Shown piece by piece: positions 10,142-27,635 of a stretch of DNA of 29,111 nucleotides. Numbering within the stretch: position 1 is the stretch's first letter; the number at the start of each line of letters is the position of its first letter. The notes beneath the pieces were generated by a model that saw nothing but the letters and a program-made list of their open reading frames with translations, made no database searches and had not been told where the DNA came from. This DNA is from a virus. The DNA lies in IMG/VR virus record IMGVR_UViG_3300031524_000062, positions 1 through 29,111 of that record. One strand, written 5' to 3'. The translations under genes were made by a program, and so were the position numbers.

Positions 10142-10158
10142 ATACCATCCTATGGTAT
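10142..10158. promoter_or_regulatory. Interrupted palindrome ATACCAT-CCT-ATGGTAT at portal leader
   Basis: Two perfect 7-base arms flank a 3-base spacer, ending four bases before the portal start codon. The element is a variant of the palindrome found at 23958, 24130 and 27611. On the portal mRNA it would read ATACCAT-AGG-ATGGTAT, a hairpin whose loop contains the only Shine-Dalgarno-like bases (AGGA). It could act as a DNA operator or as an RNA translational switch. No TTGACA box faces it on the leftward strand, unlike the other sites. Confidence 0.55.
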
Positions 10159-10188
10159 TGATAAGCTTCGCCTTTTTCGCACGTTATA

Positions 10189-10218
10189 TTGACACGCGCT
10201 TCTGGTCCAGCGTAGTCT
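10189..10218 (+). promoter_or_regulatory. Candidate rightward promoter for head operon
   Basis: TTGACA at 10189-10194 is followed after 18 bases by TAGTCT at 10213-10218. The -35 is perfect and the -10 is weak for sigma-70, but alphaproteobacterial promoters tolerate weak -10 boxes. It lies about 55 bases before the strong ribosome binding site of the 12-codon mini-gene and upstream of the whole capsid operon. The block TAGTCTCT occurs again at 10240-10247, which could be an alternative or regulatory copy. Confidence 0.4.
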
Positions 10219-10273
10219 CTCGGCTCGTAGGGGTGAGGCTAGTCTCTTCCCTCTCGTCAACAAGGAGACTCCC

Positions 10274-10312
10274 ATGGCGCGTCACAAGGGTCGTAAGGGC
10301 CGCCGGAAGTAA
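10274..10312 (+). CDS. 12-residue basic mini-protein MARHKGRKGRRK
   Basis: AAGGAG lies six bases before the ATG, one of the best ribosome binding sites in the window, and the frame closes after 12 codons with TAA. Eight of the 12 residues are Lys, Arg or His. It is the first translated element after the candidate promoter and is followed by a GC-rich hairpin and then the head operon. It may be a real nucleic-acid-binding peptide, as very short basic proteins do occur in phage heads, or a leader peptide whose translation affects the downstream hairpin. Standard gene finders would skip it because of length. Confidence 0.6.
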   Translation: MARHKGRKGRRK

Positions 10313-10333
10313 TTCCGGGTCGTCCGTGAACAA

Positions 10334-10361
10334 TGGGCGAGGTGTTCGCGCGCCTCGCCCA
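10334..10361 (+). other. GC-rich hairpin between mini-gene and head operon
   Basis: TGGGCGAGG (10334-10342) pairs perfectly with CCTCGCCCA (10353-10361) around a 10-base loop. A TTTTT run occurs only about 11 bases later (10373-10377), so it is a poor intrinsic terminator. It could be an attenuator coupled to the mini-gene, or an mRNA-stabilising 5' structure. Confidence 0.5.
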
Positions 10362-10381
10362 ACACACTGAGGTTTTTCAGA

Positions 10382-10783
10382 ATGCCTATGCCGATGATGC
10401 CCGGCGCTCCGCCCTCCCCGCCACAGGCGGGTGTGGCTGGCCCAGCGTCAGCGCCCGGTCCGATGAAGGGCGCGGCGGCGAGCGGCATGGAGAAGCTGAA
10501 GCTGGGGCTGAAGACTCTTCAGGAAGCGCTTCCCGCGCTGCCGATGGGTTCAGCCATCCACACCGCCTGTCTCAAGGCTTTGACCGAAATCGGCAAGGCC
10601 GTTGAGAAAGAGGGCGGCGCGAAGGGCGATCCCGGCGCGATGATCCAGCAACTCGTCGAGATGGCGCGAAACGCCAAGCAGGCCGGCGCGCCGGCCCCGC
10701 AGATGCCCGGAGCGGGCGCTGCTCCTCCGCCTTCGCCTGACGGCGGCGGCGGGCCCCCGATGCCACCGATGCCAGGAGCTTGA
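10382..10783 (+). CDS. Pro/Gly/Ala-rich head-module protein
   Basis: The 133-residue product has disordered Pro/Met/Gly-rich ends (MPMPMMPGAPPSPP and PPMPPMPGA). A helical core sits at about residues 35-100 (KLKLGLKTLQEALPALP, IGKAVEKEG, MIQQLVEMARNAKQ). A GAGG sits nine bases before the ATG. Small proteins of this composition are common between portal and scaffold genes of podoviruses, where they are called hypothetical or head-assembly proteins. No catalytic motif is visible. Confidence 0.65.
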   Translation: MPMPMMPGAPPSPPQAGVAGPASAPGPMKGAAASGMEKLKLGLKTLQEALPALPMGSAIHTACLKALTEIGKAVEKEGGAKGDPGAMIQQLVEMARNAKQAGAPAPQMPGAGAAPPPSPDGGGGPPMPPMPGA

Positions 10784-10784
10784 G

Positions 10785-10985
10785 ATGACGAGCGGAAAAT
10801 TCCCCAAGCCGTATGACGGCGACGTCAAGATCGATCGCAGTCTGATGGAATATGTCGCTGATTTCGAGGCGATGGACATCGGCGCTCGCCCGTCGGCTCA
10901 GCCGAAGGGCAGTCTCAGCGGGATCAAGTCGATCGACCACGTCGGCAAGGACGGGTCGCGCGGCTCGGCGCCGAGGGCCAAGTAA
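10785..10985 (+). CDS. Small hypothetical head-module protein
   Basis: AGGAG at 10774-10778 precedes the ATG by six bases, and the gene begins one base after the previous stop. The 66-residue product is polar, with an acidic middle (SLMEYVADFEAMDIG) and a basic, Ser/Gly-rich tail (GKDGSRGSAPRAK). It lies between the Pro-rich protein and the scaffold-like gene. No family is recognised. Confidence 0.6.
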   Translation: MTSGKFPKPYDGDVKIDRSLMEYVADFEAMDIGARPSAQPKGSLSGIKSIDHVGKDGSRGSAPRAK

Positions 10986-10986
10986 A

Positions 10987-11577
10987 ATGGCCGAGGCCAC
11001 CCAAGCTCAGATTCGCGCCGCCGAGCTGCTCGAGCAGTTGTGGAGCGATGGTGAGATCGGCGAGAAGGTTCGCCGCGCCGCCAAGGCGAAGTTCCCCGAC
11101 GCCAAGATCATCGACGACACCGTGGCGCCGTTTGTTGCGCCGCTTCGGGCCGAGAATGTCATGCTCAGGGAGCGTCTCGATAAGATCGAGAAAGCACGCG
11201 CTGAAGAGCGCATGGCATGGGAAGAGCACAGCGCCAAAACAATGATCGAACAGGCGATTGACAAGGCGCGCCGCGATTACAGCTTGACCGAAGATGGTAT
11301 CGACAAGGCTGTCGCTCGCGTCAAGGAGATGGGCGTGTCTGGCGACGTCGGCGTCGCGGTTGACGCCGCTGCGGCTTGGGTCGCTTCCAAGACGCCGCCG
11401 ACCGCGCCGGCCGGACCGACTTGGCGATCTCAGGATCTTGATTTGTTCGGCACGAAGAACGCGGACGAGGCTCGGGCTGAGCTGCACCGCAATCCGGTCA
11501 AGTACCAGGACGACCAGATCGAGGCGTTCTTGCGCGACCCGGACGGTTTCACGCGGGAGACATTGGGAACCCAATGA
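10987..11577 (+). CDS. Scaffold-like head assembly protein
   Basis: The 196-residue product is mostly helical and charged, with a coiled-coil-prone stretch at about residues 58-90 (LRERLDKIEKARAEERMA). A more structured C-terminal part ends NPVKYQDDQIEAFLRDPDGF. This composition and the position right before the major capsid gene are typical of scaffolding proteins, which template procapsid growth and then leave. The start was set at 10987, directly after the upstream stop; an in-frame extension to 10852 would overlap the previous gene. The role is inferred from composition and position. Confidence 0.65.
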   Translation: MAEATQAQIRAAELLEQLWSDGEIGEKVRRAAKAKFPDAKIIDDTVAPFVAPLRAENVMLRERLDKIEKARAEERMAWEEHSAKTMIEQAIDKARRDYSLTEDGIDKAVARVKEMGVSGDVGVAVDAAAAWVASKTPPTAPAGPTWRSQDLDLFGTKNADEARAELHRNPVKYQDDQIEAFLRDPDGFTRETLGTQ

Positions 11578-11744
11578 AGTATCTCCGCACATACGTTGAG
11601 CTGTGGATCGTGCAGCAGCCGAGCGGCCAGAGGTTGGAAGACAGGATCGCGGCGGCGCGGGCTCTTCTTACCGAGCATGGCCTTAGCCACGAGGTAGTCA
11701 ACCAGTCGAGCGCAGTCTTAGGCGCGCTGTCGTTCGGTATGTGA
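11574..11744 (+). CDS. 56-residue hypothetical protein between scaffold and capsid genes
   Basis: The ATG at 11574 overlaps the scaffold-like stop (ATGA), and the TGA at 11742-11744 precedes the capsid start by eight bases. The product begins MKYLRTYVELWIVQQ and continues as a helical segment (QRLEDRIAAARALLTEHGL). It is short, but coupling on one side, tight spacing on the other and plausible codon use support it. Function unknown. Confidence 0.6.
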   Translation: MKYLRTYVELWIVQQPSGQRLEDRIAAARALLTEHGLSHEVVNQSSAVLGALSFGM

Positions 11745-11752
11745 GGTAGATC

Positions 11753-12823
11753 ATGGCCTATCCCAATTCTCCGGTAAGCACTCTCACGGGCTCTGGCATT
11801 ACTCCCGGAGGTAGTTTGGGGGCGCAGATGGCTGCCCTCACGCGGAGAGCCTTTTTACCGAGTTGCTATGTTCAAATATACCAATCTCACCCACTTTTGT
11901 CGTTGTTCATGTCGAACAGCAAGGCGGCGCGCGGCGGCGTTTCCCAGATCACCGTTCCGGTGCAGGGCAACTCCTTCGTCCAGTTCTCGTGGGGTGGCTT
12001 CGACGGCAACTTCCCGATGCCGACCGATCAGGCGGCAATCCAGAACGCGCAGTTCAGTCTCAAGCTCGGCATGGTGCCGATTGGCTTCTTCGGCATGGAG
12101 TCGATTCTCCAGAGTTCCGAAGTTGTCATTCCCAAGCTGCGCGCCGTCATGTCGGACGCCGCGGTCGTCATCAAGCAGGCCTACGCGCAGGCGCTCTATT
12201 CGAACAACTACGCCAATGCGCAGATGTGGGATAGCCTGTCGCAGGCCTATGATGACGGCACCAACGTCCCGTCCTATGGCGGCATCGCACGTACCCCCGG
12301 CTCGTTCTGGTCCGGCCAGTTGATCAACAACACCGGCGCCGCGGTCACGACGCGCGTCGGCGCGGCGCAGATTCTGACGCGCATCCAGTCCGGCGCCGGC
12401 GGCGAAGCTCCCGACTTCGGCGTCATGAACCCGGCCAATTGGGCCGAGCTGATGACCGACTTCATGAGCCTCGAGATGTACCAGACTCGTCCGCGCTCGA
12501 TCTACGAGAAGGACGACGTGGTCAACGCGGGCTTCCGCGGCATCAAGGTGCTCGACACGCCGATCTTCCCCGATCCGTTCTGCCCGCTCGGCTCGGCGTT
12601 CTTCATCAACAGCCGCTACACCGGCATGTACATGTCCGAATACGCGCCGATGACCTTCTCGGGGTTCGAGCCGTTGATCAACGTCGGCCAGATCGCCGAT
12701 GTCGGCGTTCTCATCTCGTGCGCCGATCTCGTCTGCGCCAAGCCGTCCTCGGGCGCGCAGGTCACGGGCATCACTGGCGCGGCGTGGCAGGCCGTTCCGG
12801 GCACGCAGCCCGCCGTCATCTGA
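11753..12823 (+). CDS. Major capsid protein (HK97-like fold expected)
   Basis: The 356-residue product is the likely shell subunit. It follows the scaffold-like gene and has a GAGG ribosome binding site five bases before the start region. The layout fits the HK97 family: an N-terminal arm (residues 1-45), an E-loop-like beta segment (about 62-105), a long helix in the P-domain (LRAVMSDAAVVIKQAYAQAL, 129-148), and an A-domain. The A-domain includes VMNPANWAELMTDFM (224-238) and GIKVLDTPIFPDPFCPLGSAFF (in two parts, about 263-284). Strong GC-rich codon bias suits high expression. A small protein at 4213 shares the C-terminal motifs. Confidence 0.85.
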   Translation: MAYPNSPVSTLTGSGITPGGSLGAQMAALTRRAFLPSCYVQIYQSHPLLSLFMSNSKAARGGVSQITVPVQGNSFVQFSWGGFDGNFPMPTDQAAIQNAQFSLKLGMVPIGFFGMESILQSSEVVIPKLRAVMSDAAVVIKQAYAQALYSNNYANAQMWDSLSQAYDDGTNVPSYGGIARTPGSFWSGQLINNTGAAVTTRVGAAQILTRIQSGAGGEAPDFGVMNPANWAELMTDFMSLEMYQTRPRSIYEKDDVVNAGFRGIKVLDTPIFPDPFCPLGSAFFINSRYTGMYMSEYAPMTFSGFEPLINVGQIADVGVLISCADLVCAKPSSGAQVTGITGAAWQAVPGTQPAVI

Positions 12824-12836
12824 ATAGGAGCTTGAA

Positions 12837-13958
12837 ATGCCGCTTTTCGCAGGTCCTGGCGTCCTTCCGTCTCTCGGCGGCTTGGCGACCAACGTCGTTA
12901 CTCTGAAGGCCGGGCAGGTTCAGCTCATTCCGGCGGGCCGCATGATGATTCGAACCGGGCCTTACACGACGGTTCAGCAATACGATCCGATTGTCGGTAT
13001 CTGGCGCAACATTGGCGGCGGCCTCATGGCTGGCGGCCTCGACTTCCTTTGGTCGGACGGCGTCAACTATCGGCTCGCTAACCAGAACGGTTGCGTCGTC
13101 GGCGCGGTGATCACCAACGTCGGTTCGGGATACACCACGGCGCCGACGATCACGGCTGCTGCGGGCGGCGCGATCTTCAAGACGATCATTGGTGGCGCGG
13201 TGGCGACGCCGACGATCACCAACGCCGGCACGAACTACACCTACCCGCCCATCGTGCTGTTTGCTGCGCCGCCTCCCGGCGGCGTTCAGGCGACGGGCTT
13301 TGCGACGCTGTCGGGCTCGACTGTCGCTTCGATCACCATGGTGGATCAGGGCGCCGGCTATCTCTCGGCGCCGACGATCGTTTTCCAAAACGATCCGCGT
13401 GAAGGCGTCAACGGCACGACTGTCGGCTACAGCGCTGCGGCTGTGGCGACGTTGACCGGCTCGGGCACGATCACTGCGGCTCTCTGCCTCGACCACGGCA
13501 ATCCGATCGCCTTCACTGCCGGTTCGGCGACGTCGATTCCGGCGCTGACCCTGTCGTCGGCGCTTGGTTCGGCGGCTGTCACGGCGATCATGGATTGGTC
13601 GATCGTCGGTCTGCAGTCCGGCACCTACGGCAACGGTACGTCGGGCATCGGCGGCTCCAACGCCACGCAGGTTACTGCGACCGGCGTCGATCAGCCGACC
13701 GCTGCCAACTCCACCGTGCTCAACACCGCAATCCAGGCCAATTTGGTCAGGACGCGTCAGGCTTTCCTGACGGCGACGGAGTCGGGCGGCACGTTGCCGG
13801 CGTATGGTTCGTGGGTGGTTCGCGACGGCGGTATCTACACCGGCACGCCGCTGATGATCGTCAACGCCCCCGCTGGCCCGGCGGCGGGTGCGCTGGTTAC
13901 GGCGCTGGCGACGATGGGCTATTTTGCATCCGACGACACGTATATGATGCAGTTCTGA
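12837..13958 (+). CDS. Structural protein with GSGYT-type beta repeats
   Basis: GGAG at 12827-12830 sets the start six bases on. The 373-residue product has an N-terminal domain (residues 1-90), then three repeats marked by NVGSGYTTAP (95-104), NAGTNYTYPP (129-138) and QGAGYLSAP (171-179). Each repeat is preceded by an I-T-(N/M) strand and followed by a hydrophobic strand. The remaining ~180 residues are beta-rich and end in a Gly/Ala-rich helix region. The same repeat is present eight times in the nozzle protein and twice in the 27666 protein. The position after the capsid gene suggests a capsid decoration protein or spike; this is inference. Confidence 0.7.
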   Translation: MPLFAGPGVLPSLGGLATNVVTLKAGQVQLIPAGRMMIRTGPYTTVQQYDPIVGIWRNIGGGLMAGGLDFLWSDGVNYRLANQNGCVVGAVITNVGSGYTTAPTITAAAGGAIFKTIIGGAVATPTITNAGTNYTYPPIVLFAAPPPGGVQATGFATLSGSTVASITMVDQGAGYLSAPTIVFQNDPREGVNGTTVGYSAAAVATLTGSGTITAALCLDHGNPIAFTAGSATSIPALTLSSALGSAAVTAIMDWSIVGLQSGTYGNGTSGIGGSNATQVTATGVDQPTAANSTVLNTAIQANLVRTRQAFLTATESGGTLPAYGSWVVRDGGIYTGTPLMIVNAPAGPAAGALVTALATMGYFASDDTYMMQF

Positions 13959-14001
13959 TCGGCGGCCGGCCGAGGTGGTTAGTTCAACAGGAGTTACGCA
14001 C

Positions 14002-14277
14002 ATGACCCAGATTGTCACGAAGTTCAAAGCAGTTTCGATTGGCGACGTCGTCAATCTCAAGTCGGGGAGCCCGGACTTCACGGTCATTGGCTTCGCGGCG
14101 GCCGATTCTCTGGGCGTGATTTCGCCGATGACGCCGGGCGCCACTTTCGTCGAAGAGTCTCTCGTCGCCGTCTGCTACGGCTTCAGCACGGCTGGCGCAC
14201 CGGTCACGGCCAAGTTCCCGGTCGAGGTTTTGAACATCAAGACGCCGGTCGCTCCGGTCGATCCGCTCAAGGACTAA
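14002..14277 (+). CDS. Small structural-type hypothetical protein
   Basis: AGGAG nine bases upstream selects the ATG at 14002 over an in-frame start at 13975. The 91-residue product is beta-rich (MTQIVTKFKAVSIGDVVNL, FTVIGFAAADSLGVIS) without cysteine clusters or membrane segments. It ends the capsid operon just before a terminator, where head decoration or minor structural proteins often lie. Family unknown. Confidence 0.65.
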   Translation: MTQIVTKFKAVSIGDVVNLKSGSPDFTVIGFAAADSLGVISPMTPGATFVEESLVAVCYGFSTAGAPVTAKFPVEVLNIKTPVAPVDPLKD

Positions 14278-14299
14278 TACGACGCTGACGGTGTTTCAG

Positions 14300-14333
14300 A
14301 GCCCGCGCCTGCGAACAGCGGGCGCGGGCTTTT
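14300..14333 (+). terminator. Rho-independent terminator after capsid operon
   Basis: A 10-bp stem, AGCCCGCGCC (14300-14309) with GGCGCGGGCT (14321-14330), has an 11-base loop and ends in a TTTT run. It separates the highly expressed capsid genes from the adaptor gene that starts 13 bases later, probably as a partial or leaky stop. Confidence 0.8.
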
Positions 14334-14345
14334 CATTGGTGTGCC

Positions 14346-15146
14346 ATGCCGCTATCCCAGATCATCAATGACGCATCTCAACTGTTGAATGACCCTAATT
14401 TTTCATTCACGTCGAGAAGTCAGCTAGTTAGGTGGTGCAATCAAGCGAGGCGTGATTGCGCCAAGCGCACGGCGTGCATTCGCCGGCTGGTGACGGGTCA
14501 ATCGGCGTTCGGCGCGAGCGCACAGCCGGGTTACGCGATCCCCGGCGCGATGCAGCCCGGCGCGCTGCCCGGCGCTTTTCCGCAGGCCCTGTCGGGGTCA
14601 TATGGCGCGGTGCAGAATGCGATGATGACGATTCCCGGCGTCGAGCGCTATCCATTCGTCGGCTTCTTCAATCCTGCTCTTCAGGCTCAGTATGCCGGCT
14701 GCGACGAGGTGATCGACGCTGTCGCGCTGGCGGTCAACTGGGGTGGCACGACGCGACCGCAACTCGACTGGATGCCTTGGGACGACCTTCAGGCCTACGC
14801 GCGCGCCTATTCGGTGCTGAACACGTCATGGCCGGTGCTGTGGTCGGTCTACAATGACGGGCCTCAGGGCGAGATCTGGGTGTACCCTGCGCCGTCTCAG
14901 GCGACCGAGATGGAGCTCGACGCGATTTGCACGCCGAAGAACCTGAACACTGACGACGACTTCGACGTCATCCCTAGCGGGTTTCAGGACGCGTTGATGT
15001 TCGGCGCCGCCAAGTTTTCGTTCATGTCGCGCGGCCGTTACGCTCAGGCGCAGGCGATGGAGGATCAGTTCGCCAGCGGCATAGGCGTCGCGCGTGTCGC
15101 CGTGGACGGCGGCAAGGTCAAGTCATACTATAGTTCTTATCTGTAG
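14346..15146 (+). CDS. Head-tail adaptor/connector protein
   Basis: The 266-residue product begins with a helical segment (SQIINDASQLLNDPNF, SQLVRWCNQARRDCAKR). It contains an interior domain with LDWMPWDDLQAYARAYSVL, GEIWVYPAPSQATEMELDAIC and PSGFQDALMFGAAKFSF. That order (a WYP-type strand pair, then a helix near 'P..fqDAL..ga..') is typical of podovirus adaptor proteins that sit under the portal. Residues 50-85 are a Pro/Gly/Ala-rich loop. The C-terminal nine codons overlap the antisense end of the homing endonuclease, so the native C-terminus may have been altered by that insertion. Confidence 0.65.
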   Translation: MPLSQIINDASQLLNDPNFSFTSRSQLVRWCNQARRDCAKRTACIRRLVTGQSAFGASAQPGYAIPGAMQPGALPGAFPQALSGSYGAVQNAMMTIPGVERYPFVGFFNPALQAQYAGCDEVIDAVALAVNWGGTTRPQLDWMPWDDLQAYARAYSVLNTSWPVLWSVYNDGPQGEIWVYPAPSQATEMELDAICTPKNLNTDDDFDVIPSGFQDALMFGAAKFSFMSRGRYAQAQAMEDQFASGIGVARVAVDGGKVKSYYSSYL

Positions 15147-16050
15147 AATATATGTGTTTGCAGTACAGAGCGGTAGCAGCACGTGATTTTCTAGCCAAGC
15201 ACGGTGTCTTATCATGGTACAGGCTGTAGAGAATTATGGATGCGGATTTGCCGTTTATATTGGCGCCCCATATATTTCCTCGTTCAAACAGCCTTATGTG
15301 GATCTGAGGGCACAGATTTTTACAGAAATCATTAAATTGATATATTATAGCCTTTGTTCCTATAAGTGTGAAACTATTCTCCCCAATATGCCCGTCGCCG
15401 TCTATCATACCTCTCCAAAAGTCAGGGTGGTTATGTATATGTGCGGCGCAAGCATTTTTAGACTTATTAGGAATTATACCAAATTTAGAAAGCACATATC
15501 CGAGTCGTTTGGATACAATAGATATTCTTGCTCTTGGTCTTTGCGTGAGGCCTTGGGAGGTAATTTTTTGAGGAAGATACGATACTTTGTGTTTGCTTTT
15601 AAGAAACGATTTGAATGCTTCAATTTGGTACTCGTCAGGAGTAGTAAGTTGAAGAACTATGTTTGGCGACGGTATGTGCAGAACCGAGCCATCCGACATG
15701 AGAAGGCCGAGCCAATAAGCGGCTTCTGGCGTAATCGTGTCAAAAGCGCGTTCGTCGACATTTTTAGATTTACCATTGCGTATGAAAGAGGGGTCTTCTA
15801 TTACGCTTACCACTATAGAGAGTTTACGCTGTTTTTCGCAGAAATCTTCTGCGTATCTGATGTCATTTTCTGCGACAACAAGCCGGTTAAACGGGAGTTT
15901 AGCGCGATAAATTATACTGGATATAGCGGAGTCGCTGACGCTGTACTTAACTGCCAAGTTTTTATATTTAACTCCGTCGTAGTAGTCCCTTATCATGTTT
16001 TCTCTTTGCAATTTCGTGAGCTTGCTTCTAGGCTCGCCGCGTTTGGACAT
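15118..16050 (-). CDS. LAGLIDADG homing endonuclease with N-terminal HTH
   Basis: The product is about 310 residues and AT-rich, unlike its neighbours. Two LAGLIDADG helices are visible: YWLGLLMSDGSV and FWRGMIDGDGHIG, each ending in the catalytic acidic residue. An N-terminal helix-turn-helix-like segment (YKNLAVKYSVSDSAISSII) suggests target binding. Such enzymes cut a specific site in copies lacking them and spread by repair. ATG 16050 is favoured, with GAAGG eight bases upstream; a GTG start at 16065 is possible. It is a free-standing gene in an intergenic position, not inside an evident intron or intein. Its 3' end overlaps the adaptor gene by 29 bases. Confidence 0.85.
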   Translation of the reverse strand: MSKRGEPRSKLTKLQRENMIRDYYDGVKYKNLAVKYSVSDSAISSIIYRAKLPFNRLVVAENDIRYAEDFCEKQRKLSIVVSVIEDPSFIRNGKSKNVDERAFDTITPEAAYWLGLLMSDGSVLHIPSPNIVLQLTTPDEYQIEAFKSFLKSKHKVSYLPQKITSQGLTQRPRARISIVSKRLGYVLSKFGIIPNKSKNACAAHIHNHPDFWRGMIDGDGHIGENSFTLIGTKAIIYQFNDFCKNLCPQIHIRLFERGNIWGANINGKSASIILYSLYHDKTPCLARKSRAATALYCKHIYSTDKNYSMT

Positions 16051-16103
16051 CTCTATGGCCTTCACAGTGGTAAGATTTACACCCCTATACTAGCTCTGGC
16101 GTA

Positions 16104-16385
16104 GTGTCAATGCCGCAGGATCACACTGCTTCGACGATCGCTCAGGCCCGCGTGATTCGCGACGGGCTCGATCCGGCGCGCGTCGAGACGCCGGTGCGCA
16201 CGGCGACGCTGGCGCTGTTGCTCGACACACTGATCGATCTCGGCTCGCAGCCCGGAACTGAGAAGATTCGTGAGGCGCAGCGCGCCGCGATTGCCGCCAG
16301 TACGATGACGATCGCACGCACGCGAGAGGCATTCCAGAAGGTGCTCGACGCCGAGCGCGCCGCCGCGGAGGCGCGCAATGCCTGA
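16104..16385 (+). CDS. Small helical hypothetical protein
   Basis: The product is 93 residues from GTG 16104, or 91 from ATG 16110; no ribosome binding site supports either. It is Ala-rich and helical throughout (TASTIAQARVIRDGLD, REAQRAAIAASTMTIA, VLDAERAAAEARNA). The stop overlaps the nozzle start by 8 bases, so it belongs to that transcript. The missing ribosome binding site may reflect the endonuclease insertion just upstream, which separated it from the adaptor gene. Confidence 0.6.
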   Translation: MSMPQDHTASTIAQARVIRDGLDPARVETPVRTATLALLLDTLIDLGSQPGTEKIREAQRAAIAASTMTIARTREAFQKVLDAERAAAEARNA

Positions 16386-18933: not shown

Positions 18934-18944
18934 GGAGAAACCCC

Positions 18945-19160: not shown

Positions 19161-19494
19161 TATGCTGGCAGCGCTCGAGAATCTCCCGCAAACGCCTGAC
19201 GGCTGGAATCGGTTTTCGTGGGACCATCGCAACAGCCACGACCGTATCCGTGCGGCGATCAAGACAAAATATGGCGCCGATCTGAGCGACTATCAGGTCG
19301 ACCCGATCGACTCTAACGCGATCGGCGATTTCTTGCAGAACAACTCGCAGCTTCACGGCGACATGAACGGTGTTCTCGGCTTGCAAAGCAGCGATTTGCA
19401 GGACGTCAATTTCGGCGACAAGCCACAGTTCGAGGCGTGGGTGCGTCTCCATTATCTCGAGCATCAGCAAGCCGAACTGAAATTGGAGATTTGA
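19084..19494 (+). CDS. Hypothetical phage protein, 136 residues
   Basis: The product is helical near its N-terminus (SQDRLAPLGAVIELANDMLAAL in part) and ends with an acidic helix (LEHQQAELKLEI). Residues about 45-110 are polar with several Asn/Asp. The ATG at 19084 is the first in frame and overlaps the preceding small gene by 77 bases; GGGGTGGA upstream could serve as a ribosome binding site. The following gene starts three bases after the stop. Family unknown. Confidence 0.6.
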   Translation: MSRGHLRRLSQDRLAPLGAVIELANDMLAALENLPQTPDGWNRFSWDHRNSHDRIRAAIKTKYGADLSDYQVDPIDSNAIGDFLQNNSQLHGDMNGVLGLQSSDLQDVNFGDKPQFEAWVRLHYLEHQQAELKLEI

Positions 19495-19496
19495 GT

Positions 19497-20069: not shown

Positions 20070-20532
20070 TCCCGTGGTTATTGCATGGGAGACGTGGGCG
20101 TCGGCGTGGCCTGAAGGCGAAGTGCTGGTGCGAGCACATTTCAACGAGGTCGAGGGCGTTCTCGCCAAGAAAAGGCCGTGCAAAATTGACGAGCAGGCGA
20201 TGATTGACGCGGAAAGGGCCGGGGTGCTTCGCGTGGTCGGGGCGCGGGTCGGCGGTCGTCTGGTCGGCTATTTCTCATGGAGCCTGATGCCTGACATCGA
20301 ATCGAAGGGGCTGATCGTGGCGAACCAGGGCGCGATCTACGTCGACCCTCGGTTCGCCGGCCTCGGCTATCGGATGCTGACTTTTTCGCTTCCCGGCCTC
20401 AAGGCGGCCGGCGCCGACTACGCGCTGATGCACCACCGAATGCTTGGCCGCGGGGCTCGTCTTGGAGTATGGTTCAGACGGCTCAAAGCGGTGCTGATCA
20501 AGCATGAGTACTATCTCTGGCTGAGAGACTGA
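20062..20532 (+). CDS. GNAT-type N-acetyltransferase
   Basis: The ATG at 20062 overlaps the previous stop region. The 156-residue product has the GNAT core: a strand 'GRLVGYFSWSL' (residues 65-75), AIYVDPRFAGLGYRML (91-106) with the acetyl-CoA pyrophosphate loop RFAGLG (R-x-x-G-x-G, 97-102), and a following helix with HHRML. Phage GNATs in structural operons are recurrent but their substrates are mostly unknown. Pairing with a sulfotransferase-like gene suggests modification of a shared target; this is inference. Confidence 0.7.
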   Translation: MDDPVVIAWETWASAWPEGEVLVRAHFNEVEGVLAKKRPCKIDEQAMIDAERAGVLRVVGARVGGRLVGYFSWSLMPDIESKGLIVANQGAIYVDPRFAGLGYRMLTFSLPGLKAAGADYALMHHRMLGRGARLGVWFRRLKAVLIKHEYYLWLRD

Positions 20533-20534
20533 CG

Positions 20535-21710
20535 ATGGGATGCGTTTCGATTCCGATTATTGCGGCCATCACGGACAGCATTGGCGCGGCTGGCGCGGCG
20601 CTTGGCGCTGGCGCGACCGTCGCGGCTGACGTTGGCGCACCATTGGCTTTGGCGGGCGCGACTGCGCCTTTGGATGTAGGGTCTGTCGTGACAGGTCTTG
20701 GGATGGCCGGCACTACAGATGCTGAATTGGCGGCTGGATTTGGGGCCGCTGATGCAACGGGGAGCGCTCTTAGCGGTTTAGGCTCGGCTCTTACTGGGGC
20801 TACTTCGGACATGCCCGCGCTTGGTTCTACGCCAGCAATGGGCGCTGGCGTACCTGGCTCCCTTGGTACGAGTCTCGACACCGCAACAGCGCCTGGAACT
20901 GCCGTGGCTTCTGGTGCTGCACCTGGCGTTGGTGCGCCGGCAGGGTCGGTTGTTGGCGCTGCTGCGCCTGCCAGCGCCGCGGCGGCGCCGAGCGCCACCG
21001 GCGAGTTTGGTCTCGGTGATTCATCGCTGACTGGCGCCGGCGGTGGCGCTGGCACGTCGTCAGGTCTGACCGGCGACACGGCCGCATCGGCGCTCGGGAC
21101 GTCGAGCGCGCCGACGGGCCTTGCCGCGGCGCCCGGCGCAGCTGCGCCAGCGACTACGGCCGCACCAGGAGCAGAAGTTGCAGGCGCTCTTGGCCCAGGC
21201 GCAAAGGCGGGGGCTGACGTGCTTGGTATGCTGAAGTCCTACGGGCCACTGGCGCTGAGCGCCGGTGGCTTGCTGTCGTCAGTTTTGCAAGGAGACAAGA
21301 AGCCAGCTTACCAGGGCCAAGTCAGCGCCGAGGCGGCGCAGATGTCGGCGCAGGGCCAGGAACTTCAGTCCTACTTGACTTCTGGCACGCTGCCGCCCGG
21401 TGTTTCGGCAGGGCTGTCGTCGGCGCATGATTCCGCTGCGGCGACGATCCGTTCGCAGTACGCTTCGCGCGGCCAGACGGGTTCGAGCGCGGAGGCTCAG
21501 GATCTCGCCAATCTTTCGCAGACGACAGTCAGCCAGGGCGCGCAGATCGCCACGAACCTACTTCAGCAGGGCGTCAGCGAGAGCGAGTTCTCGGCTCAGC
21601 TTTATCAGAGCCTGATGGACGCTTCGATCAAGCAGGACGCGGCGCTGTCGGCTTCGATCGCCAATTTCGCCGGCGGGATGGCCGGCATGGGCTTAAAGGC
21701 TGTGGGGTGA
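20535..21710 (+). CDS. Internal virion (ejection) protein, Ala/Gly-rich
   Basis: The 391-residue product has a long Ala/Gly/Thr/Pro-rich N-terminal region (residues 1-240), which is low-complexity and weakly hydrophobic. A helical C-terminal part (about 240-391) includes YGPLALSAGGLLSSVLQG, EAAQMSAQGQELQSYL and LYQSLMDASIKQDAALSAS. It is the first of three genes with the order typical of podovirus ejection proteins, ending in a transglycosylase. No catalytic motif. The role is inferred from composition and order. Confidence 0.6.
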   Translation: MGCVSIPIIAAITDSIGAAGAALGAGATVAADVGAPLALAGATAPLDVGSVVTGLGMAGTTDAELAAGFGAADATGSALSGLGSALTGATSDMPALGSTPAMGAGVPGSLGTSLDTATAPGTAVASGAAPGVGAPAGSVVGAAAPASAAAAPSATGEFGLGDSSLTGAGGGAGTSSGLTGDTAASALGTSSAPTGLAAAPGAAAPATTAAPGAEVAGALGPGAKAGADVLGMLKSYGPLALSAGGLLSSVLQGDKKPAYQGQVSAEAAQMSAQGQELQSYLTSGTLPPGVSAGLSSAHDSAAATIRSQYASRGQTGSSAEAQDLANLSQTTVSQGAQIATNLLQQGVSESEFSAQLYQSLMDASIKQDAALSASIANFAGGMAGMGLKAVG

Positions 21711-21713
21711 TCG

Positions 21714-23606
21714 ATGCCGACCGCTTTTCCGCTCGCCGCCGATCCGTTTTCTTCCGGTAGCGCCGCCGCGGCGCTCACGTCGCAGCCGAGCCCACTTGCC
21801 GATTCGGACGAGCGGTTGAAGGCGTTCGACGCCAAGGAGGCTGATTTAGCCGGCAAGATCGACACGGTGCGCGCCGACACGAGCAAGCGCAACGAGAAGC
21901 TCGAGGACTACTTCGACCAGAACAAGCCGCCGGTCTACAAGCCGCCCGCGCCTTACAAGGCGCCGGAGGCGTCGAACCCGATGCAGGTGTGGGGCTCGTT
22001 GGCGATGGGCTTCGCTATGCTGGCTTCGCATTTCACGCGCACGCCGATGACGACGGCGCTGAACGCCGGCGCGGCGGTCATGAAAGCGTTCAAAGAGAAG
22101 GACATCGAGGCCGCCACGTCCGCCTATCAGCAGTGGAAGGACGCCAACACGCAGGCGCTCGACATGGCGAAGTACCAGCAGGCCGCCTACGCGAACCTGA
22201 TGACGACGGTCGAGCGGCGCGAGAAGAACGATATTGATCTCTCCAAGGACCAGATGGCCGATGTGCGGGCGCAGATGACAGCGCTGGCCTCGGCGTTCAA
22301 GGACGAGACGATGCTGAAGCTCGGCGAGACGCACGACGACAACGCGCAGAAGCTCGAGTTCGATCGGCGTCAACACGAAATGGATATGCTCCAAACCCAA
22401 AGCGACAAATTGGCGCAGGGCTGGGAGAAGATACAGGGCCAAGTCCAGGGCGCACGCGACGAAGCCGAAGCGAAGCAGTCGCAGCCCTACAAGGACGCGA
22501 TCTCCAGCGGTGACACGACGGGCGCCTTCAAGCTGCTCGCCGAGGCGAATCCTGACAAATACTTGGAGAAATACCAAGCCGAAAAGGATCGCCAGACCAA
22601 GGAGCAGGACAGCTCCGCCGGTCAGGCGAAGCAGCAATACGACGCCTGGGCGGCGTCGCCCGAGGGCCAAGCGTCGCCGCCTGACGCTCGAATGAAGAAA
22701 GAGGCTCAGATTTACGGCTCGTTCAAGTCGCAGGGCGGCGCGCGGCTGCTGCCACCGTTGACCGACGAGAACAAGCATTGGCAGGCCCAGCAGCTCGCGA
22801 CTTATGAGCTGCCGGTTCCCGGTCAGTTCCAGATTGCTCGTGAGCCGGGCTGGGATGGGCCAGACGGCGCGATCGCCGAGGCGCAGAAGATTAATCCGGC
22901 TTTCAACCCGGCCAAGTACAAGGCCGTGATGGCGGCGCGGCAGAAGCTGACGAGCGGTAAGGATGCCGACGCGATTGCTTCCTACGTGCGACTCGATCAG
23001 CACTTGGACTTCTTCAAGGGCCTCGTCGACAAGCTGACCGACACGTCCGACATCAAGCTGGCCGACAAGATCGCGGCGGCGTGGGGCCGTGAGACCGGCG
23101 ACCCGAATGTCACGTCCTACGAAACCGCGCTGTCGCTGGTCGGCGACGAAATCGTCAAGGCGGCGACCGGCGCGGGCGTCGCGGGAGCGCTTGGCGATCG
23201 CGAGGAGATTAAGAAGAACTTCGACCCGTCGCTGTCCAAGGACCAGTTGCGCGCCAACGTCAACGCCGCGCAGGTGCTGGTCGGCGGCGCGATGGTGTCG
23301 ACGATCAACAAGTACCGCTCGACGCTGTCGCCGCAGGAAGTGACTGACGCGGTTGGCTCTCGCGAAGTGATGGAACATTTTCACGTCGATCCCGACACCG
23401 GCAGACCGCGTGTCGAAGGGGCCTATGACTTCGGCGGCCAGAAATACAAGGTCGGGCCGAACGGCGTCGCGGTCGAGGCAGGCGCGCCCGCGGCTGGCGG
23501 CGCGCCGCAGGGCGGCTTCAAGGCGCGTTGGACCGACAAGAGCGGCAAGCCGTTTGGCCTCGTGAACGGAAAATATGTCTATGAAGACGGGACACCGGTG
23601 CAATGA
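21714..23606 (+). CDS. Internal virion (ejection) protein, large helical
   Basis: The 630-residue product is mostly helical and charged. A Pro-rich segment lies near residues 65-85. A hydrophobic stretch (VWGSLAMGFAMLASHFTRTP) begins about residue 92, and long coiled-coil-like regions follow (about 120-260, with many Gln/Lys/Glu). It sits between the Ala-rich protein and the transglycosylase, the second position of the ejection trio. Its stop, TGA 23604-23606, overlaps an ATG that was probably the original start of the next virion gene. Confidence 0.65.
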   Translation: MPTAFPLAADPFSSGSAAAALTSQPSPLADSDERLKAFDAKEADLAGKIDTVRADTSKRNEKLEDYFDQNKPPVYKPPAPYKAPEASNPMQVWGSLAMGFAMLASHFTRTPMTTALNAGAAVMKAFKEKDIEAATSAYQQWKDANTQALDMAKYQQAAYANLMTTVERREKNDIDLSKDQMADVRAQMTALASAFKDETMLKLGETHDDNAQKLEFDRRQHEMDMLQTQSDKLAQGWEKIQGQVQGARDEAEAKQSQPYKDAISSGDTTGAFKLLAEANPDKYLEKYQAEKDRQTKEQDSSAGQAKQQYDAWAASPEGQASPPDARMKKEAQIYGSFKSQGGARLLPPLTDENKHWQAQQLATYELPVPGQFQIAREPGWDGPDGAIAEAQKINPAFNPAKYKAVMAARQKLTSGKDADAIASYVRLDQHLDFFKGLVDKLTDTSDIKLADKIAAAWGRETGDPNVTSYETALSLVGDEIVKAATGAGVAGALGDREEIKKNFDPSLSKDQLRANVNAAQVLVGGAMVSTINKYRSTLSPQEVTDAVGSREVMEHFHVDPDTGRPRVEGAYDFGGQKYKVGPNGVAVEAGAPAAGGAPQGGFKARWTDKSGKPFGLVNGKYVYEDGTPVQ

Positions 23607-23626
23607 GCCTGCTGGATGACAGCGCT
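23603..23626 (+). repeat. Repeat copy R1 of the virion-transglycosylase start
   Basis: ATGAGCCTGCTGGATGACAG (plus CGCT) matches the first 24 bases of the transglycosylase gene at 24172 in 21 of 24 positions. The ATG overlaps the previous gene's TGA, like other junctions here. The frame continues for only 47 codons to a TGA at 23744-23746. This looks like the original gene start, stranded when the moron cassette was inserted. Confidence 0.7.
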
Positions 23627-23632
23627 TTGTTT

Positions 23633-23926
23633 TTAAGAGGCGGCTCGGTGAGGTGCCCATTCGATGTCGTCAATAATAGCGATGTCGTCAGACCCGAAAC
23701 ATTCTTTGGAGAAAATCTTAACCATTTTTTCCACCCACTCTTTTGAATCGCGTAGGAGCTTGAACGATGTTCTGCTGCTACCAGCTACGTAGATACGCGC
23801 TTCATACCTGCCTTCTGAATTTTTCACTATCAGAGCTACGAGCGCGCTATCACCTTCAAAGCGTGTGTCCGAGACAAGTTGGTAGATTGTTATGCCGTGG
23901 CGAAATTTTTGCCAGCGTAGCGCCAT
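23633..23926 (-). CDS. Moron-type hypothetical protein, 97 residues
   Basis: The ATG at 23926 is preceded by GGGGGT five bases away; an upstream GTG at 24031 would run through the promoter and is rejected. The gene is lower in GC than its neighbours, runs against them and has its own promoter (TTGACA at 23978-23983, leftward). The product starts MALRWQKFRHGITIYQL. It has mixed strands and helices (ALVALIVKN, YEARIYVAG, WVEKMVKIFSKE) and an acidic stretch DDIAIIDDIEW. No signal or membrane segment is seen. These are the marks of a phage moron; its function is unknown. Confidence 0.7.
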   Translation of the reverse strand: MALRWQKFRHGITIYQLVSDTRFEGDSALVALIVKNSEGRYEARIYVAGSSRTSFKLLRDSKEWVEKMVKIFSKECFGSDDIAIIDDIEWAPHRAAS

Positions 23927-23954
23927 TTTAACCCCCGTGCTTGGTCGGGTTGAT

Positions 23955-23983
23955 TTGATACCATGGTATGGATTAAGTGTCAA
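23955..23983 (-). promoter_or_regulatory. Leftward promoter with ATACCATGGTAT operator (site B)
   Basis: Reading leftward: TTGACA (23983-23978), a 17-base spacer, then TATCAA (23960-23955) as the -10. The perfect palindrome ATACCATGGTAT (23958-23969) covers the -10 upstream edge and spacer, where a bound repressor would block polymerase. Initiation would fall about 20 bases before the moron ATG. Confidence 0.7.
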
Positions 23984-24016
23984 GGGCGGTGAACTAAAAT
24001 GAACCTCTTGGATGGC
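23978..24016 (+). repeat. Repeat copy R2 (promoter -35 through MNLLDG start)
   Basis: These 39 bases match 24151-24189 (R3) at 31 positions, including TGTCAA at the left and CTAAAATGA plus CCTCTTGGATG on the right. The ATG at 23999 opens a frame of 53 codons ending TAG 24158-24160. It is a second remnant of the transglycosylase start. Together with R1 and R3 it divides the inserted region into two segments of 396 and 173 bases. Confidence 0.7.
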
Positions 24017-24024
24017 GCGGTCGT

Positions 24025-24060
24025 CAGGCACGAGACTCCTGCAAAGGAATCTCGTGCCTG
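24025..24060 (+). ncRNA. Long hairpin with GCAA tetraloop inside the inserted segment
   Basis: An 11-bp perfect stem, CAGGCACGAGA (24025-24035) with TCTCGTGCCTG (24050-24060), is followed by a C-A mismatch, then TCCT/AGGA pairs and a GCAA loop. GCAA is a GNRA tetraloop only on the plus-strand RNA, which favours a rightward transcript. No T-run follows, so it is not an intrinsic terminator. It could be a small structured RNA, an mRNA barrier or a protein-binding site; the RNA label is tentative. The rest of the 23927-24171 gap holds only the promoters and repeats. Confidence 0.45.
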
Positions 24061-24126
24061 CTGGCGCTACGTGTCAGCCAGAACTGCCGTTCTTCGGATT
24101 TTGCACTCCTTCTCGGCCTCGGCTAT

Positions 24127-24156
24127 TACATACCATGGTATCAAGCTCGATGTCAA
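24127..24156 (-). promoter_or_regulatory. Leftward promoter with ATACCATGGTAT operator (site C)
   Basis: Reading leftward: TTGACA (24156-24151), an 18-base spacer, then TATGTA (24132-24127). The perfect palindrome lies at 24130-24141. The transcript would cross the hairpin at 24025-24060 and then enter the moron's promoter region. No good ORF lies directly downstream, so it may be the control region of a lost or RNA-only moron. Confidence 0.6.
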
Positions 24157-24171
24157 CTAGCGTGATCTAAA

Positions 24172-27018
24172 ATGAGCCTCTTGGATGACAGCACTGCGCT
24201 CGACCAAACGACGCCTTGGGCGCCGACGGTTCTTGCGCCGCCCCCGGAGGCCGCTCCCCAGCCTGCGGTGAAGCCCGGCAAGATCACGCCCGAGACCCAT
24301 CCGGGCTACTTCAACGCGCCCGCGCCGGCGGCCGGCGGCGCTCCCGCCGGTCCGCAGCTGGCAGCGAGCGCCTCGCCCGCCGCTCCGCAGCCGGCGGGCG
24401 GCGACTATATGGCGACCGTGCGCCGACGCGAGAGCGGCGGCAACGACATGGCGGCCAACGGCGCGGCGTTCGGCCGCTACCAGTTCACCCAGCGGACGTG
24501 GTTGGGCGTCGCTGCTTCGCACCCTGAGCTGGGGCTGCGGCCCGAGGACATCTGGAACGGCGACAAGCAGGATCAGGCGATGAAAGCGCTGACCGCCGAC
24601 AATACGCGCGTCCTGCAGAAAGAGGGCTTGGACGCCAGCGGCGGCAATCTCTACATGATGCACTTCCTCGGGACCGGGGGCGGTCCGAAGTTTCTGAAAG
24701 CGATGCAGGCCGAGCCAACGGCCAACGCCGCGGCGATGTTTCCGCTCGAAGCGAAATACAATCCGACGATCTTCTTTCACGGCGGCGACCCGAATCAGCC
24801 GAGAAATCTGAGCCAGATCTACGGAATGATGACCAAGGACTTCGGTGGAACGGCTGTCGAGGCCGCTCAGACGAAATCCGTCGAAAATTCTCAGCCCCAG
24901 ATCGCTTCCGACGCGATTTCAGACGCGACGAACGACGCTTCGCTGCCGCCGTTGCCGGCCGGCGCCAAGCCGATCGAAGCCGCGTCGGAAGTTGCCGAGC
25001 CGGGCGAGAACCTGCCGCCGCTGCCGGCCGGCGCCAAGCCGATCACGCCGCAAGAGGCTTATGAGCAGGACGTCAACAAAGGCGGCTACGAGTCGCAGAT
25101 CAAGGTCGAGAAGGATCAAGCGCCGGATTACGCGCATCGGCTGATGGCCAACCTCGCCGGCGACCCTGAGTTTCTAGCGCCGAAGTCGCCAGGCGAGTTC
25201 GCCAAGGACGAGGCGTCGGGCGCGGCGGGCGCTCTCGCGGGCGCGGCGCGCGCACCGTTCGAACTGTTCTCGGGCATCCCTGGCGACGTGGGCGAAGGCT
25301 CAGCCGAAGCCGCTCGTCTGCTGGGGAAAGTCGGCTCGCCGCAGGCGCAGACCTTCGGCAACGTGGCTGCGCAGTTGGTTCCGGTCGGCGCTGGGGCCAA
25401 GGCGGCAGGCACGGTCGGCAAGGAACTGGTCGAGGAAGGACCGACGCTGGCGCGGCTCGGGCGCGGCGTTTTCGAGGGCGCGCGGGGCGGCGCGGGCGCC
25501 GGGCTGATGACGCCGACCGACGAAACCGATCCTAAGAAGCGCGCTGATGAGAAGCTGAAGCAGGCGATGGTCGGCGGCGCAGTTGGCGGCGCGGCGGGCG
25601 GCGCCTTTCCGGCGATCGCCGGCGGCGCCAAGTGGGTCGGCAAGGAAGTCGGCGACGTTTGGGGCGGCGAGGCGCGCCGACTGTCCGAGGAGTTGCGCAA
25701 GGGCGTCAACGCCGAGACCGGCAAGGCGCTGACCGCCGAGGAGCGGACCGCCAAGCTGGCACAGATCGACAAGATGGGCGCCAAGAAGGAAGCAGCGGCC
25801 GGCGTGGCCGACACGGCGGCGCACCAGGAGAAGATCACCGCCGAGGCCGCCGAGGCCGCCAAACCGGTTTCGACGCCCGAGGCGTTGGGCGAGCAGGTTC
25901 ACCAGACAGCGGTCGCCGATATGGAGGCTTTGAAGGCCGAGCGCGCCACGAAGTCGGGCTTCGACAAGGCCGTCAAGTCAGATGGCGGCGCGCCGTCGGT
26001 GCCGACGGGTCGCTTCGCCGCTGAAGCCAAGGCGGCGGAAGCTGAGACCAAGAGCTCCGAACTCAAGGCGGCGCTCAGCCAATTCCGTAAGTCGTTGACC
26101 AACGCGCCGAGCGTCAAGGGGCAGCCGGCGATTCAAGCGGTGTCGATCCGCCAGGCGCGTGAAATCCTCGAGACGCTCAACAAGCACATCGACGAGATGT
26201 CGCCCAACGCCGCTCATCGGCTGACCGAAGTTCGCGACGATTTTCTGGCGAATTTGGAGAAAACACATCCGCAGATGAAGGCGGCACGCGAGGCCTACGC
26301 GCGGCTCAGCCGGCCGCTTGACGTCTATGAGCGAACCGGCGCGCTTAAGAAAGCTGCGATGGAAGATCCCTACTCCGGCGCCGGAACGATGGACCCGGTG
26401 GCGATCAAGCGCGCCGTCACCGGCAAGACGCAAGCCGGGGCCGAGGCGCTCCAACGTCTGATCCAGAAGAACCCGGCGATTCGCGAGTCGACGCGCAATG
26501 TCTTGCAGCACGAGCTTTACGGCTCGGGCGCGACGGCGCGCACGCCGACGGCGGCGCAACTGCGCTCGTTCCTCAGCAACAATCGGATGGTGCTGGAGAA
26601 GACGGGTCTCGACAAGGAGTTCTCCGCAATCAAGCCGAGCTTGGAGGCTGTCGAGGCAGCGCCGCGGCGCGCGGCGGAGACGCAGCGCAATATCGAGGAT
26701 CTCGCCAAAACAAAGACCAAAGCGGTCGCCGCGCGCAGCGACATCCGTCGTCTCGAGATCGAGATGAACGAACCGAAGAACACGCCGAAGCAAATCGTCT
26801 CGGCGGCGGAGTCGACGGCCAAGAAGCTGTACGATCGCGGCTCGATCAGTGAGGCCCAATACCAGAAGTTCTTCAGCGCTGTGCGTGAGGCCGAGACAAA
26901 GAACGCCGATCACGAACACGCGGTCAGGCTCGCCAAGATGGTCGGCGCCGCCGTCGCTGTCGGGCTCATGGGCGAAGAGGCCGGTCGGTACATCCAGCAC
27001 CGGGTCAATGTTCGATGA
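24172..27018 (+). CDS. Virion transglycosylase / internal ejection protein
   Basis: The 948-residue product is the third ejection-type protein. After a Pro/Ala-rich leader (10-78) comes a lysozyme-like transglycosylase domain: RRRESGGND with Glu87 as likely catalytic acid, AFGRYQFTQRTW (99-110) and YMMHFLGTGG (161-170). It would cut peptidoglycan during DNA entry. Two LPPLPAGAKPI repeats lie at 258-268 and 281-291. Gly/Ala-rich, membrane-active-like stretches (about 340-500) and long helices to the C-terminus follow, as in T7 gp16-like proteins. The start lacks a ribosome binding site and is the third copy (R3) of a repeated start sequence. Confidence 0.75.
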   Translation: MSLLDDSTALDQTTPWAPTVLAPPPEAAPQPAVKPGKITPETHPGYFNAPAPAAGGAPAGPQLAASASPAAPQPAGGDYMATVRRRESGGNDMAANGAAFGRYQFTQRTWLGVAASHPELGLRPEDIWNGDKQDQAMKALTADNTRVLQKEGLDASGGNLYMMHFLGTGGGPKFLKAMQAEPTANAAAMFPLEAKYNPTIFFHGGDPNQPRNLSQIYGMMTKDFGGTAVEAAQTKSVENSQPQIASDAISDATNDASLPPLPAGAKPIEAASEVAEPGENLPPLPAGAKPITPQEAYEQDVNKGGYESQIKVEKDQAPDYAHRLMANLAGDPEFLAPKSPGEFAKDEASGAAGALAGAARAPFELFSGIPGDVGEGSAEAARLLGKVGSPQAQTFGNVAAQLVPVGAGAKAAGTVGKELVEEGPTLARLGRGVFEGARGGAGAGLMTPTDETDPKKRADEKLKQAMVGGAVGGAAGGAFPAIAGGAKWVGKEVGDVWGGEARRLSEELRKGVNAETGKALTAEERTAKLAQIDKMGAKKEAAAGVADTAAHQEKITAEAAEAAKPVSTPEALGEQVHQTAVADMEALKAERATKSGFDKAVKSDGGAPSVPTGRFAAEAKAAEAETKSSELKAALSQFRKSLTNAPSVKGQPAIQAVSIRQAREILETLNKHIDEMSPNAAHRLTEVRDDFLANLEKTHPQMKAAREAYARLSRPLDVYERTGALKKAAMEDPYSGAGTMDPVAIKRAVTGKTQAGAEALQRLIQKNPAIRESTRNVLQHELYGSGATARTPTAAQLRSFLSNNRMVLEKTGLDKEFSAIKPSLEAVEAAPRRAAETQRNIEDLAKTKTKAVAARSDIRRLEIEMNEPKNTPKQIVSAAESTAKKLYDRGSISEAQYQKFFSAVREAETKNADHEHAVRLAKMVGAAVAVGLMGEEAGRYIQHRVNVR

Positions 27019-27341
27019 GCGACCTTCTCGACACGATCGACGAGGCCGCGGCAAGCCTGTTGGACGCCGCTGGGTTCGGTGCTAAGGTGGAGGGCGCCGA
27101 GCCGCCGAAGGTCGAATTGTCGGATCGCGTCAAGGCCTTTCAGGCGGTCGTCGATTGGGCCAAGACGCGCAACGTGCTGAAGCCGCCGGAGCGAGGGAAG
27201 ACCAAGTTCGATGACATCAAGCGACAGTTCAGTGAGACGCCTAAGCGTCGAGGACGTCCCCCAGCGGCCGAGAGCAGTTCCGAACCCGCCGAACCCGGCG
27301 CCCCAGACCCCGCCGGTGGAACCGGACTCTTCGACGCATGA
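27015..27341 (+). CDS. Small hypothetical protein after virion transglycosylase
   Basis: The ATG overlaps the transglycosylase stop (ATGA). The 108-residue product has an acidic helical N-terminus (MSDLLDTIDEAAASLLDAAG), a helical middle (VKAFQAVVDWAKTR) and a basic-to-acidic disordered tail (PKRRGRPPAAESSSEP), which includes an AT-hook-like RRGRPP. Its last 131 bases overlap the next gene in another frame. DNA binding by the RGRPP segment is possible but unproven. Confidence 0.65.
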   Translation: MSDLLDTIDEAAASLLDAAGFGAKVEGAEPPKVELSDRVKAFQAVVDWAKTRNVLKPPERGKTKFDDIKRQFSETPKRRGRPPAAESSSEPAEPGAPDPAGGTGLFDA

Positions 27342-27546
27342 CACGCTCGTCGCCACGCTCAGGGGAATTGGCTTTATTCTCGCCCCGAAAGCGCTGATGC
27401 TGGTGGCTGTTATCTTCGTTTTCACTTTGGCTCTTTACGCGATGCGAGAGCAAACACTCAACAGCCTCTTAATCCTGTGTGTGTTCACTGTTGGCGTGAT
27501 ACTTCCTCTCGTGCTTCTTGATCTTCGTCGTGGGAGAGGTCTATGA
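27211..27546 (+). CDS. Two-TM small membrane protein, holin candidate
   Basis: The 111-residue product has a Ser/Pro-rich N-terminal ~50 residues, then two clear membrane helices (PKALMLVAVIFVFTLALYAM and LNSLLILCVFTVGVILPLVL) joined by a short loop, and a basic tail DLRRGRGL. That is the layout of class II holins, which permeabilise the membrane for lysis. The start ATG at 27211 lies 131 bases inside the previous gene; a later GTG, around 27292, would lessen the overlap. No endolysin is adjacent, so the holin call rests only on topology. Confidence 0.55.
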   Translation: MTSSDSSVRRLSVEDVPQRPRAVPNPPNPAPQTPPVEPDSSTHDTLVATLRGIGFILAPKALMLVAVIFVFTLALYAMREQTLNSLLILCVFTVGVILPLVLLDLRRGRGL

Positions 27547-27607
27547 CCCCGCCAAACCGCACCCTACCGGAGCTAGCCGTAACCTAGCAGGCCGCGCCAG
27601 AGACGTA

Positions 27608-27635
27608 TCCATACCATAGTATTGAAAGCAGTCAA
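27608..27635 (-). promoter_or_regulatory. Leftward promoter-like site with ATACCATAGTAT palindrome (site D)
   Basis: Reading leftward: TTGACT (27635-27630), a 16-base spacer, then TATGGA (27613-27608). The near-palindrome ATACCATAGTAT (27611-27622) differs from the perfect sites by one base. It would transcribe antisense into the two-TM gene, with no leftward ORF of quality, so it is either a bare operator or the remnant of a lost moron. The remainder of 27547-27665 shows only the AAGGAC ribosome binding site of the next gene. Confidence 0.5.

Follow-up and report, generated by a model that had tools for sequence, protein, structure and literature searches.

Phased AT steps in the promoters of a tailed phage family: probable operators and a candidate ribbon-helix-helix regulator

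In mycobacteriophages, the stoperators bound by L5-type repressors are asymmetric 13-mers, present in more than 20 copies per genome and bound by monomers; they are oriented with transcription and halt elongation (PMC9283540). In the DNA analyzed here (the window, a 29-kb virus record of 29,111 nucleotides in which all positions are given) a sequence-only reading had described a family of palindromes and likened its logic to that of stoperators. Dispersal in gaps, together with the single phage protein thought to bind, is indeed common to both systems. Unlike stoperators, however, the 12-mers lie in or on the -35/-10 region of promoters; they number only about 3–5 symmetric or repetitive sites per genome, and they are not asymmetric elements oriented with transcription, so the analogy was not sustained.

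The system appears instead to work like an operator–repressor pair of the Arc/CopG type, a suggestion that rests on the predicted fold of a small protein and on the layout of its putative operators. CopG, AmrZ and the phage P22 repressors Arc and Mnt are small ribbon-helix-helix (RHH) proteins with a beta-alpha-alpha core, and the candidate regulator described below resembles them in that core and in its CopG-type strand. As with RHH repressors, a short two-fold symmetric or repeated operator lies inside the promoter, the repeated subsites being found between -35 and -10 at one site (B) and over the -10 at others (A and C), and self-regulation seems likely. Unlike known RHH operators, the sites described here consist of three to five AT steps at 5-bp intervals, separated by triplets that vary; and unlike known RHH systems, they occur at several dispersed promoters, including those of an accessory gene (moron) and of an antisense transcript. 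A literature search found no paper giving this sequence as an operator and none that combined all the terms for RHH control of late promoters.

Palindromes and predicted promoters in the window and close relatives

The window derives from a tailed phage, and its genes include terminase-, portal- and capsid-like ones (the portal is named from position and synteny, the 595-aa protein having no family match). The phage family is widespread but without a close cultured relative, and little is known of its gene control. At the DNA level nothing similar was found among the phage records of the collection, in which the nearest capsids are ~37% identical; capsid relatives are encoded on 67 viral contigs, some of 57–64 kb. 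The sole match among GTDB genomes was a 4.4-kb contig in a metagenome bin, and because only this one short contig matched, no prophage or host was identified. Rfam and tRNA scans were empty.

A motif scan of the window recovered all four palindromes of the sequence-only reading at exactly the same positions: two exact copies of ATACCATGGTAT (operators C1 and C2; Table 1), one copy with a single mismatch (operator A) and one split copy (array E). When up to two mismatches are allowed there are five matches (two of which overlap one another inside array E), far above the mean of 0.13 and the largest count of 2 obtained in 100 dinucleotide shuffles. The restriction of the palindromes to non-coding gaps, claimed earlier, holds for 4 of 4 sites in the window; a longer GTG-started open reading frame (ORF) over 23958 is unneeded, since the moron coding sequence starts at an internal ATG at 23926. 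Contigs that share the sequence of the window phage place a further site, B (TTGACATGATACTGTGGTATCGAATAGC), outside the window, 105 bp to the left of its first base; in contig L150 this fifth site of the phage is ATACTGTGGTAT at 6523–6534, behind TTGACA.

Each of the three 12-mers in the window is accompanied by a leftward TTGAC(A/T) box, as had been noted, at gaps of 8 (C1), 9 (C2) and 7 (A) bases, and the suspected overlap of palindrome and -10 element was found at all three, with spacers of 16–18 bp. Predicted promoter A reads antisense into the rightward structural genes; in five genomes no conserved leftward ORF with a ribosome-binding site was seen behind it. The position and direction of promoter A are kept in six records (the window, G002, G004, G005, G006 and G008). 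Array E, in addition to its position in the portal gap, extends across the region in which the ribosome would bind for the portal gene (minus-strand AGGA).

Table 1. Sites, predicted promoters and genes of the window, with portal-gap arrays of two relatives
Feature	Positions	Strand	Details
RHH1, 64-aa ribbon-helix-helix protein	752–946	+	In operon read from promoter B; identified by alignment, model and co-occurrence with arrays
Portal-like gene, 595 aa	8350–10137	-	Start codon 4 bp from array E
Array E (window portal gap), AT-ACC-AT-CCT-AT-GGT-AT	10142–10158		Gap between leftward portal gene and rightward late genes
TTGACA of rightward late promoter	10189–10194	+	~30 bp to the right of array E; retained in most of the regions upstream of portal genes
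Accessory (moron) gene, 97 aa	23633–23926	-	Read from P-C1 (predicted)
Promoter P-C1 (predicted)	23955–23983	-	TTGACA 23978–23983, 17-bp spacer, TATCAA 23955–23960; overlapped by operator C1
Operator C1 (putative), ATACCATGGTAT (AT-ACC-AT-GGT-AT)	23958–23969		Exact match; retained in relative G004 at 49899
Strong stem-loop	24027–24058	-	~70–100 nt downstream of P-C2; fold -35.6 kcal/mol, z -7.7
Promoter P-C2 (predicted)	24127–24156	-	TTGACA 24151–24156, 18-bp spacer, TATGTA 24127–24132
Operator C2 (putative), ATACCATGGTAT	24130–24141		Exact match; retained in G004 at 49727
Promoter P-A (predicted)	27608–27635	-	TTGACT 27630–27635, 16-bp spacer, TATGGA 27608–27613
Operator A (putative), ATACCATAGTAT	27611–27622		1-mismatch copy; perfect palindrome ATACTATAGTAT in G004 and G005
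Portal gap of G013			AT-CCG-AT-CCT-AT-CAT-AT
Portal gap of L035			AT-GCT-AT-CCC-AT-ACT-AT-CGT-AT

Conservation in relatives, a check proposed together with the original observation, was found for the promoter-linked copies in G004, G005, G006 and G008. In these four full-length close relatives and the window, 12-mers with no more than one mismatch have, without exception, a TTGAC box 0–10 bases upstream; the background is 2–5% among random 12-mers, or 3–5% among those of the same composition. The relatives carry 2–4 12-mers each, symmetric or near-symmetric, in genomes of 57–63 kb, and the sites fall into groups by location: A before gene 27666 (kept in the window phage, G002, G004, G005, G006 and G008), B between the late operon and a serine recombinase gene that ends just ahead of the site, C comprising the two moron sites that the window has in common with G004, D found in G006 alone, and E in the portal gap. 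At site A the palindrome survives changes on both sides (ATACCATAGTAT, ATACTATGGTAT in reverse reading, and ATACTATAGTAT). A wider scan of viral contigs for TTGAC-N8-10-ATACCATGGTAT returned 22 loci, a number estimated to be near chance and not used as evidence; one of these, L081, is a known relative, and the rest, some of which duplicate each other, belong to unrelated phages. In close relatives the position ahead of the late operon is filled by either of two unrelated types of serine recombinase, the one exchanged for the other (G004 10163–10717, G005 21120–21800; left of window base 1).

A period-5 AT array in distant relatives

The deepest conserved feature of these sites is a series of AT steps, one every 5 bp, (AT-N3)n, of which the palindrome is a special case. 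When the portal gaps of distant relatives are aligned, the triplets and the symmetry change and the AT steps stay 5 bp apart (Table 1). The dispersed operator set proposed in the sequence-only reading stands as to promoter linkage, restriction to gaps and conservation, but not as to the palindrome itself as the conserved unit, which is AT-N3-AT-N3-AT. Retention of 5-bp phasing while the other bases drift is unusual for a sequence-specific site.

The pattern came from inspecting these genomes, so the period-5 counts are a check on the same genome set: four ATs at period 5 form 34 runs in 17 related genomes (overlapping runs within one site being counted separately), compared with a mean of 3.75 and a maximum of 11 in 20 dinucleotide shuffles, and with 0–14 four-AT runs at periods 3–4 and 6–15 in the same 17 genomes. 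In the 60 bp before the portal start, an array of at least three ATs at period 5 is present in 19 of 27 representative phages (identity below 85%); the shuffles gave a mean of 0.8 and a largest value of 4, and AT runs at other periods were seen in 0–5 of the 27. With three ATs following a TTGAC within 12 bases, there are 18 cases at period 5 and 1–6 at other periods.

At site B of the late operon the array lies between -35 and -10 and has up to five ATs in independent sequences, some of which joined the data after the period-5 idea (one search was aimed at 12-mers with AT ends). Late-operon arrays stand upstream of the gene for RHH1, a 64-aa protein, in independent lineages (e.g., G011, G013, L032, L152, L161, L165, L168, L170 and L178), and the AT phasing is kept in phages of 48–66% G+C. 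Agreement between the triplets at E and B is only slightly closer within a phage than across phages (permutation fraction 0.05).

A candidate regulator and competing readings

The palindrome is probably one form of a family-wide promoter switch made of phased AT steps and bound by a small phage-encoded protein. As read from the sequences, the putative operator consists of AT steps every 5 bp, or half a helical turn, in the form AT-N3-AT-N3-AT or longer (ATACCATGGTAT being the commonest form here), built into promoters of the sigma-70 type. Because the array lies between -35 and -10 at B and over the -10 at A, C1 and C2, a protein bound there would block polymerase.

Of four candidate DNA-binding proteins compared, RHH1 is the strongest candidate for the role of regulator. 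In its alignment a strand (xVTIxVS) is followed by two helices, and the structural model places helices at 23–36 and 40–62 after the strand, with a core pLDDT of 86–92. Compared by Foldseek with CopG, Arc and AmrZ, the model reaches a probability of ~0.9 with weak E-values (best 0.57, at probability 0.92), and an RHH fold is accordingly predicted for this phage-encoded protein; no Pfam or PHROG family was reached, the protein falling below the Pfam RHH cut-offs. All array-bearing phages in which the region ahead of the terminase is covered far enough encode RHH1 in the same place: a profile finds it in 16 of them, and two more, G017 and L056, encode divergent homologues that share its MPR(I/V)Y start and were spotted by eye after the profile had missed them. 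L051 has neither RHH1 nor an array; G015 has no array, and a pattern search found no MPR(I/V)Y protein there; in G018/L062, which lacks the array, the homologue is shortened and the basic arm is missing. The co-occurrence counts few independent events. A second protein, RHH2, encoded upstream of the recombinase, was set aside because it is only 27–38% identical between phages that have the same operators, and a third, RHH3, showed no link to the sites.

On balance we favor, with moderate confidence, the reading that the sites are operators of a phage-encoded transcription regulator, with RHH1 as the candidate, at which RNA polymerase would be blocked at B, C and A. RHH1 may bind the arrays as cooperating dimers and would then limit its own operon together with the accessory genes, the simplest model being negative self-control of the late operon; the moron promoter and the antisense promoter would come under the same control. 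At E, RHH1 could restrain the portal transcript or act from upstream on the late promoter. Against this assignment count the weak E-values, the small number of independent events and the marginal agreement of the triplets at E and B; in addition, RHH dimers are usually spaced by about one helical turn rather than by half of one, and at least one other DNA-binding protein, a Cro-like helix-turn-helix (HTH) protein, is conserved in the same phages. More tentatively, and somewhat short of an even chance in our judgment, the arrays may represent a new kind of operator, in which half-turn AT steps with free triplets are read by RHH dimers at 5-bp steps around the helix; such an operator would control the late and accessory promoters of a large family of uncultured tailed phages, and morons would join the circuit by carrying it. 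The 64-aa protein and the 17-bp site make a testable regulator–operator pair.

The Cro-like protein (79 aa, encoded in the early region at G004 31049–31288) is the likeliest other phage regulator for which the arrays might serve as operators in place of RHH1. It is conserved in G004, G005, G008, G011 and G013 and has a weak Pfam match to Phage_CI_repr, and binding of a Cro-like dimer to a 12-bp palindrome would be ordinary. This assignment is nevertheless unlikely: the recognition segment is near-identical in G013 (PRATVNQWFRRASVP) and G004 (PRPTINQWFRRGSVP) despite their different operators, and it differs in G011 though the G011 operator is nearer that of the window; moreover, no array lies beside the Cro-like gene, and period-5 arrays of four or five ATs are unlike a single Cro site.

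The sequence-only reading had allowed for either a phage-encoded or a host regulator, and of these the former is better supported, since the same AT phasing is found in phages of 48–66% G+C and the arrays co-occur with RHH1. Adoption by the phage of an operator bound by a host regulator would agree with the use of host sigma-70-type promoters; it is a rather improbable account, however, as phages with so wide a range of composition very likely have different hosts and yet keep the array while the triplets vary by lineage, and as presence of the array tracks a phage gene.

For site E alone the possibility has to be weighed that it is no operator and acts instead in RNA, as part of the ribosome-binding site of the portal gene, in the form of a hairpin, AUACCAU-AGG-AUGGUAU, with the Shine-Dalgarno sequence in its loop. 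The site begins 4 bp from the portal start codon with AGGA on the minus strand, its CCT is nearly invariant in relatives, and the fold does form; but the fold is weak (z -1.5), the pairing is lost in distant relatives that keep the period-5 ATs, and arrays of the same type are found at B, where no start codon is near, so that we regard this account with about as much doubt as that of a host operator. The notion that crossover takes place at the palindromes, brought about by the small serine recombinase whose gene lies immediately upstream of site B (that gene ends 4–119 bp before the site in G004, G005, G006 and G008, and the ACCATGGT core resembles the Hin/Gin invertase sites hix and gix, the hix core being ACC-AT-GGT) is very improbable, because a different and unrelated class of recombinase adjoins the same B operator in the window phage and G005, the operator, unlike hix and gix, being promoter-bound and unchanged by the swap, and because crossover would leave the TTGAC linkage and the -10 overlap unexplained and would give site E a 7-bp centre, and because the sites of distant relatives are not palindromic.

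Moron cassettes and neighboring features

Regulation by RHH1 would also extend to the accessory genes, which appear to be wired into the phage's own circuit. Morons are accessory genes that lie between late genes, each with a promoter and terminator of its own. Like other morons, the 97-aa gene has its own predicted promoter, is inserted against the direction of transcription and is present in few of the related phages: only the window and G004 carry it, the single homologue being 96% identical. No confident Pfam or PHROG family was found for it (the scanned ORF began at the upstream GTG). Unlike typical morons, its promoter carries the phage's own putative operator, and the start of the downstream gene is copied after each insert. 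Three copies of the start of gene 24172 (ATGAGCCTCTTGGATGACAGC) occur (23603–23626, 23999–24020 and 24172–24192), each leftward cassette being followed by a fresh copy of the start and ribosome-binding region of the downstream gene; these copies suggest how cassettes enter without breaking the gene.

Between P-C2 and the strong stem-loop there is no credible ORF, and the stem-loop, which has no T-run, is possibly a terminator, a small RNA or the remnant of a moron; no clear hairpin follows the 97-aa gene. At position 58164 of G013 an array promoter is likewise followed at once by a hairpin, as at C2, and both may produce small RNAs.

Elsewhere in the window, the segment 15214–16104 has 44% G+C in a genome of 62% G+C and contains a 296-aa open frame, with a 315-aa frame on the other strand; G004 has only a 68-aa relative, and the segment is probably a recent acquisition. 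The full-length relatives also conserve a GapR-like protein (PF10073, E 9e-32), encoded in G004 at 24505–24777.
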